From: an uncultured Fretibacterium sp.
GTDB taxonomy: Bacteria; Synergistota; Synergistia; Synergistales; Aminobacteriaceae
Assembly: GCA_947168585.1 (NCBI GenBank)
Contig: CAMVMK010000012.1
Span: forward strand, 1-51,867
DNA: 51,867 nt
Reading direction: 5' to 3'
Shown here: piece after piece, positions 968 through 46,949 of the stretch
Position numbering within the stretch: the stretch's first letter is position 1
Layout: each line of letters begins with the position of its first letter
Translations under genes and position numbers: made by a program
Notes under the pieces: model-generated
The model's input: only the letters and a program-made list of their open reading frames with translations
What the model was told of the DNA's origin: nothing
Databases searched by the model: none

Positions 968-1038
968 GTTAGGAGTGAGGGGTTAGGAGTGAGGAGTGAA
1001 AAGACTTTTTACTTTTTATCTTCTAACTTCTCACTAAC
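968..1038. repeat. heptad-repeat hairpin element, copy 1
   Basis: The plus strand carries tandem 7-bp units (TTAGGAG, TGAGGGG, TTAGGAG, TGAGGAG) from 968 to about 998. A roughly inverted arm, cttctaacttctcactaac, follows at 1020-1038. It lies between convergent genes. The inverted arm is part of the coding sequence for the last residues of the GT-C protein (VSEKLEDKK). Confidence 0.8.
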
Positions 1039-3012
1039 TTTTTCCCATGCTGAATAATGAGTTACAGCACCGTTGTTATTGTCATCAACGAGTTTGAAAA
1101 CGCACTTGTAAACATTTCCGTTGCAGGTGTAAGTTTTTTCTGTGTCCAATTCGACATTTTCAACGAGAATAATGTCCGGCGAAAAATTCGGATTCATGGG
1201 CTCAATTTCGCGTCCATTGCCTTGAAGTCTTACGCACTCGATCTTTTTGCCTTCGGGAACATATTTAGCTAAGAGTTGATATTGAGCTTTAATTCCGTCA
1301 AAACCTATATTTTCATAATTCCCAGCGTCAAGCAGCTTTATAAAATTATTGTATATCGTGAAATATTTTGTTCTACGTCCTGCGTTCCAATATCGTTCAT
1401 ATCGTGGATAATTCATGTTTTTTACTGGCGAAACGGTATGAAATATAAGACTTTCGGTGCAGGCGAGGCTCCCTTGAAAAATTAAATCGAGGACTAAGAA
1501 ACAGCAGGCTTTATATTTCCAAGAATCTGTACTAAATCTTTTAGTAATTTCTCTGAAATAATAAACAATAGGAATTATAACAACGACAAGAGCCGGAAGT
1601 ATTAATCTGCTGCCCCATGGCTGCCATCGTAATATTATGAGTATTGAATATACCTGTAAACACAACGTAAACATTAAGCCTTCTGTTTTATTACGGCGTT
1701 TTATTAGATATATCAATGAAATAATCGTTACTATTAAAAACAGCGGCGTAACTAAATGAGCTACTCCTGCGTCCATGTTAATTTTATATTCAATTTTTTC
1801 AAAAGGTATATTAGAAAGACTTACTTCAGGAGCATTAATATCAATTTTTAATAATCTTTCAAAAAATTTTATACCTGCTCCGAAAATTTCAGTGTTTCTT
1901 TCAAAACCTAAAGAAATTAAATTTTTAACGACGTTTACAAAAATATATTTCGGTGATGTTGTTCCAATAGCTATATTGCCGACATTGATTTTTGCCATAA
2001 AATCGCCGTCAAAGGCTTGGTAATTTCTATAAAATGTCGGGAATACGAGCACCGCTATAAAAATTAATGATATTACACCCAACGGAATAATTTTGAAATT
2101 TCCCGAAAAAATTTTCATTATTGCTATGCCGATAATAATCACAGCGGCCGGTGCGCAGGCGTTTGTCTTAGTAATATAAAGGAAACCGGAAACAAGGCCA
2201 AGCAGTGTAAATTGAAAAATTGTAAGTTTAGAATCATATAAAACTTCAATCATTAAGTAAGTTAAGACCATTAAATAAAATGCGCTTACAACGTCTACTT
2301 GTGTTGTTATAGATTCAGCAGCAAAAATGTGCATACTCAAAGTTAAAATACAGCCGAATAATGCCCATTTAATACCGCAGCCTAATTTCCTAACAATCCC
2401 GTATAACAAAAATAAACAGCCGTATGCTGAAAAATTTTGCAGCATATTTGCAAATAAATCTCCGCCGCTAATTAAAAAAATATTGAGATTTATATATTCA
2501 GCAAAGACAGGCGAGAACAACTGACTTAAGATTGAAGTGTCATAATAATCAATGCTTTGATGCTGTATCCAATAAACAATTCTTGAAAGATGATATGACA
2601 TAGAATCGCCATTATATGGGGCTGTAATCAAGGCCAAGACTGTGCGGGCAAGCATGAAAAACGCAATGAAAATTATTAAAGCCTTTACTGAAGTTCCGTT
2701 ATCGCGGTATAAACTCACAGCACTTTGTTTCAGCGAAATAATTTTTTCCCGCAATACATTTTTTCGTGAAAAAATGTACCCCCCCCCAAGAATTAAATAA
2801 ATTACCCAAGCTATTATTAAATTCGTTGCTGTAATAGCTTTGAAAATATTTAATCCTTCAGTTAATGCAAATAAAAATGCCGACCATAAAATACTCGCTA
2901 CGCAGATAGTCTTGTAAATATCCGCGCAATTAACCCATACCGCGAAAAACGCAGCACCCCATGTACAGCAAAAAAGCAAATACATTAACGTTTGGTAAAA
3001 AATTGATGCCAT
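1009..3012 (-). CDS. GT-C family membrane glycosyltransferase (GtrC/ArnT-like)
   Basis: A 667-residue polytopic protein with about a dozen hydrophobic segments, followed by a soluble C-terminal region from about residue 530. In the first extracytoplasmic loop the sequence NGDSMSYHLSRI (about 135-146) has the acidic-residue and His/Arg layout typical of GT39-like or RgtA-D-type transferases, which use polyprenyl-phosphate sugars on the periplasmic face. It is the last gene of the leftward cassette, 3 bp after gtrA. Together with GtrA and the GT2 enzyme it completes a gtrABC-type module; the acceptor glycan is unknown. Codons near residues 76-78 lie on a nine-base G tract (2779-2787) that is currently in frame. 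The C-terminal nine residues are encoded by a heptad-repeat arm. Confidence 0.75.
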   Translation of the reverse strand: MASIFYQTLMYLLFCCTWGAAFFAVWVNCADIYKTICVASILWSAFLFALTEGLNIFKAITATNLIIAWVIYLILGGGYIFSRKNVLREKIISLKQSAVSLYRDNGTSVKALIIFIAFFMLARTVLALITAPYNGDSMSYHLSRIVYWIQHQSIDYYDTSILSQLFSPVFAEYINLNIFLISGGDLFANMLQNFSAYGCLFLLYGIVRKLGCGIKWALFGCILTLSMHIFAAESITTQVDVVSAFYLMVLTYLMIEVLYDSKLTIFQFTLLGLVSGFLYITKTNACAPAAVIIIGIAIMKIFSGNFKIIPLGVISLIFIAVLVFPTFYRNYQAFDGDFMAKINVGNIAIGTTSPKYIFVNVVKNLISLGFERNTEIFGAGIKFFERLLKIDINAPEVSLSNIPFEKIEYKINMDAGVAHLVTPLFLIVTIISLIYLIKRRNKTEGLMFTLCLQVYSILIILRWQPWGSRLILPALVVVIIPIVYYFREITKRFSTDSWKYKACCFLVLDLIFQGSLACTESLIFHTVSPVKNMNYPRYERYWNAGRRTKYFTIYNNFIKLLDAGNYENIGFDGIKAQYQLLAKYVPEGKKIECVRLQGNGREIEPMNPNFSPDIILVENVELDTEKTYTCNGNVYKCVFKLVDDNNNGAVTHYSAWEKVSEKLEDKK
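2779..2787 (-). repeat. poly-G tract (9 G, coding strand) in the GT-C gene, in frame
   Basis: Nine consecutive C on the plus strand, followed in the coding sense by TA. It encodes Gly-Gly-Gly in LILGGGYIF. Loss or gain of one base would truncate the protein after about 80 residues. Confidence 0.9.
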
Positions 3013-3015
3013 AAA

Positions 3016-3471
3016 TTAAACCTGCCTTTTCTTGAAAATAATCATCTTGCTGATGACGTAATTTAAGATAATAACTATAATTTCGGACGATAATTTAACG
3101 CTCAAAGTGTTAAATTTCAGCCACGTTATAAAAATCCCTATAATCACCTCCTCAACGAGCAGCGTAAAAATTCTTCCCGAAAAAAATGAAATTATCTGGC
3201 GTAATAATTCGCTGAAACTTTCAGATTTATACTCAAATACCCAGATTTTATTCGTGAAATATTGAAAAATTACGCAGATAACCCAGCATATAGCGTTATT
3301 TATCAGAGCATCAATACTAAAAATTTTATCGATTGCAATAAACAGCAATATGTTCATGAAAAACGCAACGCCGCCGAAAAATAAATAGAGCAGCCCTTCT
3401 TTATGCCGCTTGTAAAACGGCTCGAAAATATTTAGGCCGGGCAGCCTAATAAGCCTGTCGAAAATGCTCAT
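3016..3471 (-). CDS. gtrA: GtrA-family membrane protein (putative polyprenyl-phosphate-sugar flippase)
   Basis: A 151-residue protein with four predicted transmembrane helices and the GtrA signature layout: an opening [12 protein letters not shown] segment, then [15 protein letters not shown] and a final membrane segment ending in [10 protein letters not shown]. Family members are thought to move polyprenyl-phosphate-linked sugars across the inner membrane for surface-polysaccharide decoration. The gene overlaps the upstream decarboxylase gene by 4 bp (ATGA) and is 3 bp from the GT-C gene, which shows translational coupling in a six-gene operon. Confidence 0.85.
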
Positions 3472-4409
3472 ACTAAAATTTTCTTAAAATACTCGATTGT
3501 ATATTTAAGACCATCTTCAAGAGGTATTGTTGGCTTCCAAGAAAGTTCCTTTTGAGCAAGTGAAATATCAGGCTTTCTTTGAGTCGGGTCGTCTTGCGGC
3601 AGCGGACAGAATACCAATTTAGAGCGCGAATTTGTAAGTTTTACTACAAGTTCTGCAAGTTCTTTAATTGTAAATTCGCCGGGATTGCCGATATTAACAG
3701 GACCCGTGAAACCGTCGCGGCTGTTCATGACTTTAATCATTCCGTCAATTAAATCATCCACGTAACAGAAACTGCGTGTCTGCGAGCCGTCGCCGTAAAT
3801 CGTAATATCTTCATTTTTAAGGGCTTGAACGATGAAGTTGCTGACTACGCGCCCGTCTCCTATATCCATTCGGGGGCCGTAAGTGTTGAAAATCCTCATG
3901 ACTTTAATATCAACGCCGTGCTTACGGTGATAGTCGAAAAATAAGGTTTCGGCTATTCTTTTGCCTTCGTCATAGCATGAACGCGGGCCGATTGTGTTCA
4001 CAGAGCCTCTATAAGTTTCAGGCTGCGGATTACATTCCGGGTCGCCGTAGACTTCGGAAGTTGATGACTGTAAAATTCTTGCGCCTGTTCTCTTGGCAAG
4101 TCCGAGAGTATTAAACGCGCCGTAAACAGAAGTTTTTGTTGTGTAAATCGGGTCTCTTTGATATTGAATCGGTGAAGCAGGGCAGGCTAAATTGTAAATT
4201 TGATCGCACTCGACATAAATAGGATTAATTACATCGTGCCTTATGAACTCAAAATAAGGTTCATTAAGTAAATGCCGGATATTATCTTTGCTGCCGGTGA
4301 ATAAATTATCGACGCAGATAACATCGTTGCCTTCCTTGATGAGCCTATCACACAAATGCGAACCTAAAAAGCCCGCTCCGCCTGTAATTAAAACTCGTTT
4401 CCTTCTCAT
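3468..4409 (-). CDS. uxs: UDP-glucuronate decarboxylase (UDP-xylose synthase), extended SDR
   Basis: A 313-residue NAD-dependent extended SDR. The dinucleotide-binding motif is GGAGFLG (10-16). The family-typical NLACPASP (73-80), STSEVYGDP (116-124) and SCYDEGKR (144-151, catalytic Y146/K150) are present, as are [10 protein letters not shown] and [15 protein letters not shown]. These are diagnostic of UXS rather than of a 4-epimerase. The expected reaction is UDP-glucuronate to UDP-xylose plus CO2, giving a pentose donor for the surrounding glycosyltransferases. The start overlaps the end of the flavoprotein gene by 4 bp and the stop overlaps gtrA by 4 bp. Confidence 0.9.
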
Positions 4410-5819
4410 AATTTTTCTCCTTTACTCATACTTTTTCCGCCTTCTTGATAATCGTAGTCTGTGTTGACGTTCCAGAGATTATTTTTTCTTTCTCCGGTGA
4501 TTATATTTTCAGCAGCAAGAAGTCCCATTAAAATGCTATGGTCTTGATTATTATACTTGAAAGAACCGTTACGGCCAATAAACGCCGCATTGCTGATACT
4601 GTCTGCAGCTTCTTGTAGAATGTTTAATTTTTCCTGATAGCCTGTTGAATAAACAGGGTAAGAGCGGTGCAGTCGCAGAACATAACCGTCAGCGATGTCG
4701 TTTTTATTTACGAGTGCGGTTTTAGCAGCTTCGTCTTTTGCTGTTTCGATTAATTTTTCATCGGAACATTTCCAAATATCGTCATCATCATATGACCAGT
4801 ACTCGAGAGCAAGAATTGTAAAATCTTCTCCGTTTGTGATGTAAGGCGACCAATTTCGGAAGTTTGTCATTCTGCCGAACTGCACGGATTTATCGTGAAT
4901 ATAGAGCCAGTTATCTTTGAAGAGATTTTTTTTATTGACTTTCAAATAAACTAAAGTCGTATTTCGATAGGTAAGTTCGTCCGCTATTTTGTAAACTTCG
5001 GGAGAAAAATTAGGAATACTTTTAATCATATCCGTAAACGGAGCAGTTGAGACTACAAAATCATAAAAAATTTTTTCGCTGTTTACAATAATTCCCTTAC
5101 AAATTTTATTTTCAACAATTAAGCCTTCAACAGTGTTTTCAAATTTTATTACCCCCCCCCTTTGAAGCGATTTTTTTCACAATGTTATCGTAAGGCACGC
5201 CTGCTCCCATTTTAGGATAAGCAAACTGTTCTACGAGTGTTTTGTGTTTAACGCTCTTTTGCGGGAATATTGCTGACTTTATGACCTCGAAAAGGTCTAA
5301 GCCTTTAATTCTTTGACGGGCAAAATCCGCGTCTAAATTTTTACATGAAATTCCCCATAAACGTTCAGAATAAGTTTTGAAGAAAACGCTGTAAAGTTTA
5401 TAGCCGAATTTATGTGATACCCATTCTTCAAAAGTTTTTTCGCTGCCTTTTTTAGCAAAACATGCTTTTATATAACTCAAAACGCATGACATAGCCTCGA
5501 TAAAACCTAAATTTTTAAGAGCGTTCATAGCTTTGACGGGATATAAAAAAAATTTTTTGTTGTAATAAATTCTCGTCAATCTATCGACCATTACATAATC
5601 TTCTCCGACTTGTTCACGCCAGAAAGAATTTATTTTTTCGTCCATCGAGAAAAACCTATGAGGTCCTACATCAACACGTTGTCCCCAAAGATCAAAACTC
5701 TTAGTCATGCCGCCTGCAGCAGCACTGCTCTCGTATACATCAACATTAAAGCCGGATTCAATAAGTTTCAAAGCGCAGGTCAATCCGGCCGGACCTGCTC
5801 CGATTATTGCCGCTTTCAT
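4406..5819 (-). CDS. UDP-galactopyranose-mutase-like FAD enzyme, interrupted by a poly-G frameshift
   Basis: Two adjacent frames form one amino-oxidase-fold flavoprotein of about 470 residues. The N-terminal part starts at [12 protein letters not shown] (5819), with FAD-binding GAGPAG at 7-12 and later [25 protein letters not shown] and RQRIKGL. It runs into a nine-G tract (5152-5160) and stops shortly after. With eight G the frame continues as [19 protein letters not shown] and joins the C-terminal part without loss. The family includes UDP-galactopyranose mutase-like and protoporphyrinogen-oxidase-like enzymes; the product may be UDP-galactofuranose, which would fit the adjacent galE, but that is inference. 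An ATG at 5849 in the same frame is disfavoured, because the ATG at 5819 has an AGGAGA site and overlaps the galE stop (ATGA). Confidence 0.8.
5152..5160 (-). repeat. poly-G tract (9 G, coding strand) breaking the flavoprotein gene
   Basis: Nine C on the plus strand. The flanking reading frames join only with 8 (or 11, or 5) bases here. This is either a slipped contingency tract in the OFF state or a sequencing or assembly length error. Confidence 0.9.
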
Positions 5820-6796
5820 AATTTTTTCTCCTGTAAATGCCAATTCCAAGCTGTAGAAATTATTGTGTCTAAATCCGAATATTTAGGCTGCCAGCCTAAA
5901 ATTTTATTAGCTAATTCATAACTTCCTGCAAGTTTGGGAGGATCTCCTGCACGTCTATTGCCTTCACGGACATTTATATTCCGTCCTGTAATTTCGCGGG
6001 CTTTGCTGATTAATTCACGAATAGAAACGCCTTCTTTTGTACCAAGATTTAAGAAGACAGATTTTCCGCCGTTTTTGAGATATTCATAAGCCCTAAAATG
6101 AGCATCAGCTAAATCAGTAACGTGAACATAATCTCTTATGCAAGTTCCGTCCGGAGTGTCGTAATCTGTTCCGAAAATTTCAATAAATTCACGCCTGCCG
6201 AGAGCCGCGTCTAAAATAATCGGTATAATATGAGTTTCTGGTTCGTGCCATTCGCCTATTTGCCCATCAGGCGAAGCACCTGCAGCGTTAAAATATCTGA
6301 ATATACAGTAAGATAAACCGTAAGCAACAGCGTAATCTTTTGCTATCCGTTCGATCATTAATTTTGAAGCTCCGTAGGGATTAATGGGATTTTGAGGGCT
6401 GTCTTCTTTTATCGGAATTTTTTCAGGAATGCCGTAAGTCGCGCAAGTTGACGAAAATATAAAATTTTTAACTCCGTGACGTAACATAGCATCGAGTAAA
6501 TTTATAGTATTTGCTACGTTGTTGCGGTAATATTTAGCCGGTTCAAAAACGGATTCTCCGACATAAGCGAACGCCGCGAAATGAATGACAGCATCTATTT
6601 TATATTTCGTGAAAATTTCATCGAGTAAACTTGAATCAGAAATATCTCCCTCGATAAAAATTCCTCCGGTGATTAATTCTTTATGTCCTCGTGAAAGATT
6701 ATCTATGATTACGGTATCATGACCGTTTTGCAGGAAAAATTTATTAGCATGGCTTCCTATATATCCTGCGCCGCCTGTTATTAAAATTATTTTGAT
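5816..6796 (-). CDS. galE: UDP-glucose 4-epimerase with an apparent ATC start codon
   Basis: The full GalE sequence (326 residues) is recovered only if translation begins at ATC (6794-6796), giving KIILITGGAGYIGSHA. The glycine-rich NAD motif is at 8-14, SST at 115-117, and catalytic Y141/K145 lie in NPYGASK. RYFNAAGASPDG and YDTPDGTCIRDYVHV follow. It interconverts UDP-glucose and UDP-galactose for the cassette. An AGAAAGGA ribosome site lies 4 bases before the ATC. An in-frame TGA precedes it by 36 bases with no ATG, GTG or TTG in between. The first in-frame ATG (6487) would delete the whole NAD-binding fold. So the gene either uses a rare start, carries a start-codon mutation, or contains a base-call error. 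Confidence 0.88.
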   Translation of the reverse strand: MKIILITGGAGYIGSHANKFFLQNGHDTVIIDNLSRGHKELITGGIFIEGDISDSSLLDEIFTKYKIDAVIHFAAFAYVGESVFEPAKYYRNNVANTINLLDAMLRHGVKNFIFSSTCATYGIPEKIPIKEDSPQNPINPYGASKLMIERIAKDYAVAYGLSYCIFRYFNAAGASPDGQIGEWHEPETHIIPIILDAALGRREFIEIFGTDYDTPDGTCIRDYVHVTDLADAHFRAYEYLKNGGKSVFLNLGTKEGVSIRELISKAREITGRNINVREGNRRAGDPPKLAGSYELANKILGWQPKYSDLDTIISTAWNWHLQEKKL

Positions 6797-7637
6797 TGCT
6801 TCCTTTCTGATTAAAATTATAAACTTTTTTCATTATAAAATTCTTTTTAGGCCGATGCAATTCAATCATAAATGAATTATTTATAAAAAATAACAGTCTA
6901 ACGCAAGGATATAACAGGATTTTTCTTTGATTATTATAAAGAAGTACCCCCCCAACGGAATTTTTGTATTTTAATATACAAAAAATAGCGCGGAGTCCGT
7001 CGTTAAAACCTATCTTTTTTCCGTGCTCTTTTAAGCGGGGACTGTATTTTATAGGAATTTCTTTAATTCGGATACCAATGTTAGCTAACTTTGCTGTGAT
7101 TTCAGGCTCAAAACCGAAACGGTTTTCTTCAATTTCAATAGATTTAATTACATCGCGCTTGAAAGTTTTGTAGCAGGTTTCCATATCCGTAAGTTTGTAA
7201 TGAGTGAAAAAATTTGATAAAAAAGTTAAAAATTTGTTTGCGAGACGGTTGGAAAAATATCCTTTAGCTTTGCCGTTCAGGAAACGCGAACCGTAAACTA
7301 CATCAGCTTCGCCAGACAAAATCGGAGCTACTAAATTAGGATATTCCGCAGGATCGTATTCTAAATCAGCATCTTGAATGACGACTATATCTCCGGTAGC
7401 GTGAGCAAAACCTGTGCGGAGGGCGGCTCCTTTGCCTTGATTTTTTTTGTGATAAATAATTTTACTCACTAAAGGACGGATTCTTTTCTCTAAAATTTCT
7501 CTCGTTCCGTCTGTGCTGCAGTCATCAACTACGATAATTTCTTTATTATCAATCGGCGATAAATTGACTTTATTTACAACTTCGTCAATATTATTGAGTT
7601 CGTTGTAGCAGGGAATAATAACTGAAAGCGTGAACAA
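6744..7637 (-). CDS. polyprenyl-phosphate glycosyltransferase, GT2 (DPM1/GtrB-like)
   Basis: The first roughly 228 residues are a complete GT2 catalytic domain of the dolichol-phosphate-mannose-synthase type: VIIPCYNE (6-13), VVDDCSTDGT (36-45), QDADLEYDP (88-96), GSRFLNG and a conserved EITAKLANIGIRIKEIPIKYSPR segment. It should charge undecaprenyl phosphate with a sugar on the cytoplasmic face. Residues after KYKNS follow a seven-G tract (6947-6953) and form a 68-residue tail unlike the family, which runs 53 bp into galE in another frame. With eight G the protein would end after four more residues (stop at 6934-6936); with six it would gain a different tail of about 20 residues. It is the first gene of the cassette. 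Confidence 0.85.
   Translation of the reverse strand: MFTLSVIIPCYNELNNIDEVVNKVNLSPIDNKEIIVVDDCSTDGTREILEKRIRPLVSKIIYHKKNQGKGAALRTGFAHATGDIVVIQDADLEYDPAEYPNLVAPILSGEADVVYGSRFLNGKAKGYFSNRLANKFLTFLSNFFTHYKLTDMETCYKTFKRDVIKSIEIEENRFGFEPEITAKLANIGIRIKEIPIKYSPRLKEHGKKIGFNDGLRAIFCILKYKNSVGGVLLYNNQRKILLYPCVRLLFFINNSFMIELHRPKKNFIMKKVYNFNQKGSNQNNFNNRRRRIYRKPC
6947..6953 (-). repeat. poly-G tract (7 G, coding strand) near the 3' end of the GT2 gene
   Basis: Seven C on the plus strand, again followed in the coding sense by TA. Tract length selects among three C-terminal ends and decides whether ribosomes run into galE. Confidence 0.85.
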
Positions 7638-9110: not shown

Positions 9111-9389
9111 TTAAGCACAGAGAGTTTTTAATTCTTCCCAATATTTTTGAGGATCATCGGATTTAGGTTCAGGAATATCAACTCCGGCTTCAAGCCAAAT
9201 TTCAAGAAAATCTCTTTTACAGTCTTCGAGAGCCTGCCGGGCTTCAGGATAAGTGTAACCATGACCGCGTACAGCTGCCCAACCTAAAAGCGGAATTGAT
9301 AGCATAATTCCTCCGCCGTCTTCTTCAGATAATTCTTCCAGTCTGATTTCGTACGGGAGCGACATGTAATAATCTAAATCCTTTTTCAT
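9111..9389 (-). CDS. hicB: HicB-family antitoxin, copy A
   Basis: A 92-residue protein with the HicB partial RNase-H-like fold: YYMSLPYEIRLEELSEEDGGGIMLSIPLLGW, then YPEARQALEDCKRDFLEIWLEAGVDIPEP. It probably neutralises the upstream toxin and represses the operon. Its ATG overlaps the toxin stop (ATGA), with AAAGGAGA upstream. I see no separate DNA-binding domain after the fold. The sequence is identical to the copy at 9832-10110. Confidence 0.8.
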   Translation of the reverse strand: MKKDLDYYMSLPYEIRLEELSEEDGGGIMLSIPLLGWAAVRGHGYTYPEARQALEDCKRDFLEIWLEAGVDIPEPKSDDPQKYWEELKTLCA

Positions 9390-9831: not shown

Positions 9832-10110
9832 TTAAGCGCAGAGAGTTTTTAATTCTTCCCAATATTTTTGAGGATCATCGGATTTAGGTTCAGGAATATC
9901 AACTCCGGCTTCAAGCCAAATTTCAAGAAAATCTCTTTTACAGTCTTCGAGAGCCTGCCGGGCTTCAGGATAAGTGTAACCATGACCGCGTACAGCTGCC
10001 CAACCTAAAAGCGGAATTGATAGCATAATTCCTCCGCCGTCTTCTTCAGATAATTCTTCCAGTCTGATTTCGTACGGGAGCGACATGTAATAATCTAAAT
10101 CCTTTTTCAT
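9832..10110 (-). CDS. hicB: HicB-family antitoxin, copy B
   Basis: Protein sequence identical to copy A (92 residues). The gene differs by one synonymous base near its stop. Its start overlaps the stop of the toxin gene by 4 bp. With two intact copies the pair has not decayed, so the duplication is recent or gene conversion keeps the copies identical. Confidence 0.8.
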   Translation of the reverse strand: MKKDLDYYMSLPYEIRLEELSEEDGGGIMLSIPLLGWAAVRGHGYTYPEARQALEDCKRDFLEIWLEAGVDIPEPKSDDPQKYWEELKTLCA

Positions 10111-45083: not shown

Positions 45084-46949
45084 ATGAGCTGGGTAATTTT
45101 GGCACTTACTTTGGGTGCTTCAATAACTTCAATTATACACGGCGTATTTATGTTGTTCGGATCATTATCAGTGAACACTGGAGCTTTATTCGATATTTCC
45201 GCAAAAATTCTTGCCTGTCTGCCTGTAGTGTCGGCGGTATTTGCTTTAATCGGAGGCATTATAGCTTTCAATCGAAGCAAATGGGGAGCGTTATTTTTAT
45301 TCGCTGCTGGGGGGCTTTGCGTACCGTCAAAAGATACGTGGCTGTACGGCGGAATATATTTTTTCGCTATGCTTCTGTGCTTTTTCTTGAAACCTGAAAG
45401 ACACGATGAATATGATGATTTATTATACGAAGACGAAGAAGAAAACGAAGCTGAAAATTTCGAGTCAGGGCGTCAAACTCCTGATTATTATTTCGGAAAT
45501 GAGAGCGAAAATTTTGCTGAAGAAAAAGAATCAGTAGATTATCTTCAAGGCGGACTGCCCGACCTTCCTCAGCCTGAATTAAAAGCCGTTGATCCTTTGC
45601 TTGATGTTGATTTAACCGCGCCGATGATTAATAATGAACCGCCGAAATTAAGACGCAGAATGTCAAAGACCTGCCCGACCTGCGGAGCAACAGTAGCGCG
45701 TGAAGCGAGATTTTGTTCAGCGTGCGGATCGCCTCTTTTAGTTCCGGCTGAAAACTTAATTGAAGAAACTCACGATAACGAGCCTCAATTAAATGTCAAT
45801 GTAATTAAGGAAACAACTCCAGGCAAACTTGCTTCGGATTTTGCGGACAGACTTGAAAAATCTATGTCCGAGTCTGAAAATAATTTTGCTGATGATAATA
45901 ATATAAATTCTAATGCGAATGATGGTGATGATATGGCCAATAAAGTTTTTGTTAAACCGCGCCGGGAATATCAGGATTTAGAAAGCACCGGCGGAAGATC
46001 TAAAGTCGGCAACAACATTGACGCTGCTGCATCTTCTTATCAGGAATTTTCAAGATACACGAAACGCAATAAAAAACGCAAGCGTTCTGCAGGCCGTAAA
46101 CTTTTGAGTATGCTCTTGCTCGTAGGAGCAGTCGGAGGAGCTTTATATTTCCTGCTCGGACTCCGTAAACTTCCGCCCGGAGATCTGCCGCCTATGCAAC
46201 GCAACGCCGTAGTTGACGCTACAAGAAACGCAAATAATAATCTCCCGGCTTCTTTAACAACAACGTCAAATCAAAATTCACAGCCTGAAATAGCCGTTCA
46301 AGATAATCAGGAAATAGCTGTGCCCGGTCAAAGCGTAACAGAAAATATTCTGCCGAATTTCACGCCCGAACGCGAGCCTAAAGCCGGTATAGTTGTAGGG
46401 AGCAATGTCAACGTACGCTCAGACCACACGACAAGCTCAAGCAGAGTTGCGCGTTTGAACGTAAACAGCAAACTCGAAATTATAGGAACTTTCAACGTAA
46501 CTTCCGGACAACATCAGGGAATTTGGTACAACATCATAACCGGCGGCAAAGAAGGCTGGATTTACGGCCGTTACGTTCAGCCTACAGGTTCGGGACTTCC
46601 TGCGGGATATTCTAACGCTCTGTTAAAAACTTTCGGGAGCAATAAATCGCAATTACTCGAGTCTCTCGGCAATCCTAACAGAAATTCAAGCACGACTTTA
46701 GAATGGACAGGTTTAACTGCAACTTTGAAAGGCGAAGACATAACTAAGATTAGAGTTACAAGCGCAAACCGCGAACTTCAAAACGGTCTCAAAGTCGGAA
46801 TGAGCCAGACTGCTCTGCTTCAAATTATGGGCTATCCTTCAGGGGTAAGCAATAAAATTTTGCAGTATAACGAGGGCAATAAAACAGGCGTAAGCGTTCA
46901 GCTTGATAAAAATAACGCTATAAGTTCAATCACTATAAATCAAATTTAG
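45084..46949 (+). CDS. membrane protein with zinc ribbon and SH3b domain, unknown function
   Basis: About 621 residues from ATG 45084, with AAGGAG 14 bases upstream (a GTG at 45069 abuts that site and is unlikely). It has an N-terminal block of three or four hydrophobic segments (about 1-103), an acidic linker and a zinc ribbon CPTC...CSAC (C197, C200, C211, C214). A long Asn/Asp-rich linker, a single transmembrane helix (LLSMLLLVGAVGGALYFLLGL) and an SH3b domain (SNVNVRSDHTTSSSRVARL...GWIYGRYVQP) follow, then a C-terminal domain of about 100 residues with two related GxSxxxLLxxxGxP motifs. It probably links a cytoplasmic zinc-binding region to a cell-wall-binding region. Confidence 0.7.
   Translation: MSWVILALTLGASITSIIHGVFMLFGSLSVNTGALFDISAKILACLPVVSAVFALIGGIIAFNRSKWGALFLFAAGGLCVPSKDTWLYGGIYFFAMLLCFFLKPERHDEYDDLLYEDEEENEAENFESGRQTPDYYFGNESENFAEEKESVDYLQGGLPDLPQPELKAVDPLLDVDLTAPMINNEPPKLRRRMSKTCPTCGATVAREARFCSACGSPLLVPAENLIEETHDNEPQLNVNVIKETTPGKLASDFADRLEKSMSESENNFADDNNINSNANDGDDMANKVFVKPRREYQDLESTGGRSKVGNNIDAAASSYQEFSRYTKRNKKRKRSAGRKLLSMLLLVGAVGGALYFLLGLRKLPPGDLPPMQRNAVVDATRNANNNLPASLTTTSNQNSQPEIAVQDNQEIAVPGQSVTENILPNFTPEREPKAGIVVGSNVNVRSDHTTSSSRVARLNVNSKLEIIGTFNVTSGQHQGIWYNIITGGKEGWIYGRYVQPTGSGLPAGYSNALLKTFGSNKSQLLESLGNPNRNSSTTLEWTGLTATLKGEDITKIRVTSANRELQNGLKVGMSQTALLQIMGYPSGVSNKILQYNEGNKTGVSVQLDKNNAISSITINQI

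Follow-up and report, generated by a model that had tools for sequence, protein, structure and literature searches.

Putative phase variation at poly-G tracts with common DNA flanks in an uncultured Fretibacterium genome and its glycan cassette

The locus analysed here raises the question of whether long runs of G in the genes of a glycan operon act as one local switch, or belong to a set of such sites that extends over the genome. In GtrA/GtrB/GtrC modules, which serve in glycan modification, one operon encodes GtrA, a polytopic protein and a glycosyltransferase of family 2 (GT2) for polyprenyl-phosphate sugars. What is known of genomes with poly-G contingency loci comes mainly from a few pathogens. 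The window, i.e., the whole stretch of 51,867 nt that was analysed, has only three G/C runs of at least 7 (C9 at 2779-2787, C9 at 5152-5160 and C7 at 6947-6953), all of them G on the coding strand of one leftward operon. Runs of six come next (C6 at 27533, G6 at 45309), and our recount thus agrees with the initial annotation, which had listed runs of 7, 9 and 9 with none but runs of six to follow. A first-order Markov model of the window predicts approximately 0.03 runs of at least 9 and 0.74 runs of at least 7; the two G9 tracts are therefore not attributable to chance, and the single G7 is unremarkable when taken alone. Within the window, a G run of at least 5 is directly followed by TA on its 3' side only at these three tracts.

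The cassette and the state of its tracts

The order of the genes and their tight spacing, as described in the initial annotation (GT2-galE-flavoprotein-uxs-gtrA-last gene, leftward), were borne out on the list of open reading frames (ORFs). The features, in the direction of transcription, are:

6954..7637, minus strand: GT2 of the polyprenyl-phosphate sugar synthase type, catalytic part (PF00535 on the ORF; PDB dolichol monophosphate mannose synthase, 4.5e-22)
6947..6953, minus strand: G7 then TA, at the 3' end of the GT2 gene (run count; G5-G7 just before the uxs start in three sister species)
5816..6829, minus strand: galE open frame (TIGR01179, 307 bits vs. cut-off 262, scored from the listed ORF of 223 aa)
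5163..5849, minus strand: flavoprotein, 5' half (NF005548 positions 5-223, under the whole-protein cut-off; PDB UDP-galactopyranose mutase, 5e-12)
5152..5160, minus strand: G9 then TA, point of reading-frame change (run count and ORF frames)
4406..5149, minus strand: flavoprotein, 3' half, in another frame (NF005548 positions 246-476, under the whole-protein cut-off; GLF E 6e-5, under the Pfam cut-off)
3468..4409, minus strand: uxs, UDP-glucuronate decarboxylase (UDP-xylose synthase; PDB UDP-glucuronic acid decarboxylase 1, 1.6e-120)
3016..3471, minus strand: gtrA (PF04138, 2e-19, 70 bits vs. cut-off 26)
1009..3012, minus strand: last gene, polytopic membrane protein of 667 aa (65% identical to the G008 copy; putative function from context)
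2779..2787, minus strand: G9 then TA inside the last gene, read through as assembled (run count and ORF frame)

Assignment of the GT2 as a GtrB-type transferase is based on PF00535 and on PDB dolichol and undecaprenyl phosphate sugar transferases, and holds at the family level. In the galE frame, read from 6829 to 5816, an ATG, GTG or TTG first appears only after 114 codons; a stretch AAGGAA lies upstream of ATC, ATA and ATT codons in this frame. The flavoprotein is near both PRK07208 and the UDP-galactopyranose mutases and closer to the former family, each half staying under the whole-protein cut-offs; when the halves were scanned apart, the 3' half reached 23.3 bits against the GLF cut-off of 26.3. 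Searches of Pfam, NCBIfam and PDB sequences gave no match for the last protein, and its single-sequence fold was uninformative (mean pLDDT 39.6). The label GT-C, earlier given to the last gene, is consequently left without family support. A scan of genome contigs gave one partial relative. The operon does resemble GtrABC modules: its GtrA and its GT2 of the polyprenyl-phosphate sugar kind bear out the first two components of that label, and a polytopic protein accompanies them; it differs from such modules in having its own uxs, galE and flavoprotein genes and a last protein outside the known families searched. Elsewhere in the window, two ORFs near each other (9111-9389 and 9832-10110) have identical translations of 92 aa.

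In three sister species (G008, G014 and G021) the unit is GT2-uxs-gtrA-last gene, so that galE and the flavoprotein gene are additions in the window cassette relative to them; in G014 and G021 the last gene extends past the contig end. The position of the GT2 tract, just before the uxs start codon, is occupied by G7 in G008 and G014 and by G5 in G021. This run looks like a gene-junction or ribosome-binding feature. It had been proposed to switch the tail of the GT2, which we do not retain: it is only a G7, it lies at that junction and 3' of a complete catalytic domain (the PDB match spans residues 4-226 of 228), although the listed ORF (6744-7637) extends beyond it.

The two G9 tracts are different in kind. 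The flavoprotein had been described as a single gene, and its halves do match one family colinearly along the 488 positions of NF005548; they are not one open frame, as their frames meet at the G9. Among 13 relatives (L128-L140, 31-42% identity) the halves are in one frame in 11, the exceptions being L140, with halves in different frames, and L129, which has no 3' half. In the family members of G005, G022, G049 and G062 the tract is a G10 at about residue 30, whereas the window tract is near residue 230. At the site of the last-gene tract, G021 has G7, G008 has GGCGGT in a full-length gene without a tract, and G014 has no tract. A small frame-shifting deletion is present near the start of the G021 copy (L106:7163-7270), upstream of its tract. 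As assembled, the flavoprotein gene would be off and the last gene on.

Poly-G tracts across the genome and between species

Every G-tract of at least 8 was taken with its surroundings from the assembly (2,349,254 bases in 110 contigs). There are 60 such tracts in the 2.35 Mb, and approximately 6 would be expected genome-wide when the Markov rate of the window is scaled up. Run lengths are bimodal, and among the tracts G9 is the commonest (30 of 60), followed by G8 (16), G11 (7), G10 (6) and G13 (1). The cassette holds only two of the 60 tracts, and the view of the initial annotation, confined to the cassette, was thus too local. The idea of three tracts acting as one local combinatorial switch was rejected, because the GT2 run appears to be a junction feature and the tract set is genome-wide. 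The proposal of slipped-strand contingency has strong support at the flavoprotein and last-gene tracts, from the frame changes, length differences and many glycan-related genes found genome-wide, and is not supported at the GT2 tract.

Reading frames were compared across each run with at least 60 open codons required on each side, tract L096 being counted on both strands. Of the 25 tracts that place G on the coding strand, 12 were in frame and 13 out, one of the latter (L065) being a two-gene junction and most of the others candidate rather than proven single genes; with C on the coding strand, 1 was in frame and 4 were out. Control runs in the same stretches were nearly always in frame: 37 in and 1 out for A/T of at least 8, 132 and 6 for A/T of 7, 29 and 3 for G/C of 5-7, and 226 and 5 for G/C of 4. 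The difference between G-coding tracts (13/25 out) and A/T runs of at least 8 (1/38) is significant (Fisher, 5e-6). Halves matching one family colinearly were found for the flavoprotein, L087, L093 and L098:17664.

A Pfam family at E ≤0.001 was obtained for 25 of 40 tract-gene pieces, and none for the other 15. Many of the genes are glycan-related: the families comprise glycosyltransferases of families 1, 2 and 11, CDP-glycerol transferases, FkbM and other methyltransferases, an epimerase-DegT fusion, DUF4422 and MurJ/MatE. Several families are of another kind, with M13 peptidase, SDF, SBP_bac_3 and HD also found. Pieces upstream of tracts add GtrII and two more GT2. About nine intergenic tracts have a TTGAC on one side and a -10-like box on the other, the spacers measuring 15-21, after two more TTGAC matches inside genes had been discounted. 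At L065:1843-1852, a G10 lies where a diguanylate cyclase-like (GGDEF) gene meets one for an M13 peptidase, with G8 there in G021. Upstream of a flagellin gene (PF00669), at a distance of 52 nt, a very short open frame contains a G9 (L075:2551-2559), and G8 is found at a like place in G008.

Comparison with related genomes had been suggested as a check on phase variation. We used 292 non-redundant tracts of nine species, the loci of G024 and G049 being left out (tracts taken of total: G000 59/60, G048 53/53, G042 47/66, G022 29/37, G017 27/44, G005 27/41, G014 24/26, G008 18/18, G021 8/8). Homology on both sides was found for 23 tract pairs, 19 of them at the same site, which gave 17 clusters (5 intraspecific and 12 interspecific). 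Tract lengths, as assembled and from one genome per species (species, not strains), differ in all 12 interspecific clusters. The frame state also differs in 5 of the 12, with frames in the cut stretches approximate and one of the five (G005/G022, L362/L373) resting on approximately 30% identity. The intraspecific clusters are G8/G9, G10/G9, G9/G9, G12/G12 and G9/G10. In G042, runs of G19 and G23 (L227 and L232) are close to or at contig ends; long tracts may therefore break assemblies and be undercounted.

Loss of mutS was rejected as an explanation. MutS1 is intact in the window genome, so no general mutator contributes; of 46 genomes searched, 39 gave a MutS1 score above the cut-off.

Sequences flanking the tracts

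TA stands directly 3' of the tract at 58 of the 60 tracts of at least 8 in the window genome. After shorter runs it is found at 114 of 2787 G3 (4%), 14 of 446 G4, 3 of 48 G5, 2 of 9 G6 and 2 of 3 G7. It is common, and not universal, in the window's group (G000, G008, G021, G014), with 57/59 in G000, 20/26 in G008 and G021 together and 15/24 in G014. Another 36 genomes of the genus have 787 tracts of at least 8, with TA at 304 and the mirror pattern at 92; in 24 genomes of other families in the order, TA occurs at 30 of 815 tracts. Across 185 genomes of the phylum, G9-TA was counted 349 times in the 43 genomes of the genus vs. 97 for the mirror pattern, and outside the genus a genome mostly has 0-3 and at the highest 10. 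One genome of the same order (G036) has 165 G-tracts of at least 8 in 1.8 Mb, with TA after only 1.

In five sister species (G005, G017, G022, G042 and G048; 183 tracts) a motif approximating TACGTAAWTTnTAC lies shortly upstream of the tracts. It was first spotted by eye in a listing of flanks, followed by 6-mer counts and then by a motif search (G048, G042). TNNGTAA occurs within 45 nt upstream of 71/183 tracts vs. 1/176 controls 300 nt away, and TACGTA upstream of 51/183 vs. 0/176; downstream of the tracts, TNNGTAA was found at 14/183, the controls giving 6. The gap between motif and tract is tight, mostly 3-6 nt, with 7-9 in G048 and peaks at 0-1 and 5-6 in G005. When the motif was trained on four species and applied to the fifth, 112/183 upstream vs. 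24/179 downstream flanks beat 95% of shuffles; the transfer was weakest in G005 (12/27) and G042 (22/47), and a free search in G005 gave a different consensus. The motif threshold was passed at 139/183 tracts of the five species, the motif thus missing at 44, vs. 17/109 in the window's group. The strict motif pattern and its scrambled control both gave 0 in viral contigs.

TA-flanked tracts occur in all three codon phases, and the start of the motif, followed at 62 coding tracts, is spread over the three phases as 25, 24 and 13. A codon or amino-acid cause of either flank was rejected, as all three phases were found. The flanks are thus frame-independent and lineage-specific, stand beside tracts in unrelated genes, and are unexplained.

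Interpretation and relation to known systems

We consider it very probable that the two G9 of the cassette and the approximately 60 poly-G sites of the genome are a slippage contingency set with common DNA flanks; putative phase variation at poly-G tracts is well supported by the sequence comparisons. Tracts that are fixed, with frame changes due to assembly errors or pseudogenes, seem to us quite improbable. Such a reading would agree with an assembly split into 110 contigs from which alone the lengths are taken, and with the deletion in the G021 last gene, which means that decay of cassette genes occurs; however, frame changes cluster at G-tracts and not at equally long A/T runs, the pieces flanking the tracts are long, tract-bearing genes are without many other breaks, and lengths at one site vary among genomes.

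For the flanks, the spread of tract and motif together on a short element, by insertion or recombination, would account for the recurrence of a single motif in unrelated genes at a nearly fixed distance from the tract and for tracts shared by tandem gene copies (L085, L086, L088, L099). We regard it as unlikely: relative to tract-less relatives, the G10 of the flavoprotein family brings in a stretch of at most approximately 4 nt in the four species that have it, and unrelated tract sites are alike, by eye, for no more than approximately 25 nt. It is similarly improbable that the flanks are ordinary expression signals (-10 boxes, ribosome-binding sites) beside the tracts. The promoter-like intergenic tracts and the location of some tracts at gene junctions speak for this, as does TTGACA within 40 nt upstream of 10/59 tracts vs. 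0.59 expected, an enrichment that is modest because 3/58 control windows 300 nt away also contain TTGACA; yet TA and the motif mark tracts deep within genes and in all three codon phases. Our preferred reading of the flanks is a cis element by which tracts are seeded or made unstable.

Under the slippage contingency reading, the cassette probably builds a polyprenyl-linked sugar. Judging from the protein families, Uxs would supply UDP-xylose, and a second sugar would perhaps come from GalE and the flavoprotein; the GT2 would load the sugar onto the polyprenyl carrier, GtrA would flip the product, and the last, polytopic protein would pass the sugar to a surface polymer. The G9 tracts in two of these genes would gain and lose bases by slippage, and in living cells this might yield different surface glycoforms. 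Over the whole set, slippage would switch frames in glycan-related and other genes and act at the promoter-like sites and at some junctions or leaders. The flanks (Gn-TA here, the TACGTAAWTT-like element upstream in the sister species) most likely mark places of easy tract formation or slippage. A further proposal, which we hold only tentatively and think rather unlikely, is genus-wide motif-directed localized hypermutation, in which a flank element (the partly dyad-symmetric TACGTAAWTTnTAC-like one in some species, the 3' TA in others), read by a cellular factor or acting via DNA structure, creates and maintains poly-G at chosen sites in unrelated genes with mismatch repair intact. A role of the flanks in slippage is made doubtful by C. 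jejuni, where tract slippage is unaffected by flanking sequence (PMC4965091).

The poly-G phasome of Campylobacter comprises 5-81 genes per strain, with homologues that have or lack tracts (PMC6321876). The present set is similar in that poly-G is dominant, G9 is the commonest length, tracts lie mostly in genes whose coding strand has the G, and many genes encode surface-modifying enzymes; unlike in Campylobacter, mutS is intact here and a tract flank is common to unrelated genes (PMC6321876), similar tract surroundings being reported, in the part of that account used here, only for cj1421c/cj1422c (PMC6321876). As in the Neisseria porA promoter, where poly-G lies between the -35 and -10 elements, some intergenic tracts have this placement, but here the candidate promoters, predicted from sequence alone, are a minor class (PMC3639595). 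Length differences of the same tract between related species, in genes and promoters, are known from Bordetella pertussis (PMC1891110); the common flank found here differs from that case, as the corresponding part of that source mentions none (PMC1891110). Among the matches listed from open-licence PMC titles and abstract starts, none described phase variation by poly-G in Synergistetes/Synergistota, and none a common tract flank. The two G9 tracts of the window add a further case to the known kind of poly-G contingency locus, and the flanks are the part that is new to us. A comparable poly-G set is present here in a genus with an intact mutS gene, and should the flanks prove to seed tracts or to increase slippage, the origin of contingency loci at chosen genes would become testable with a short DNA element.
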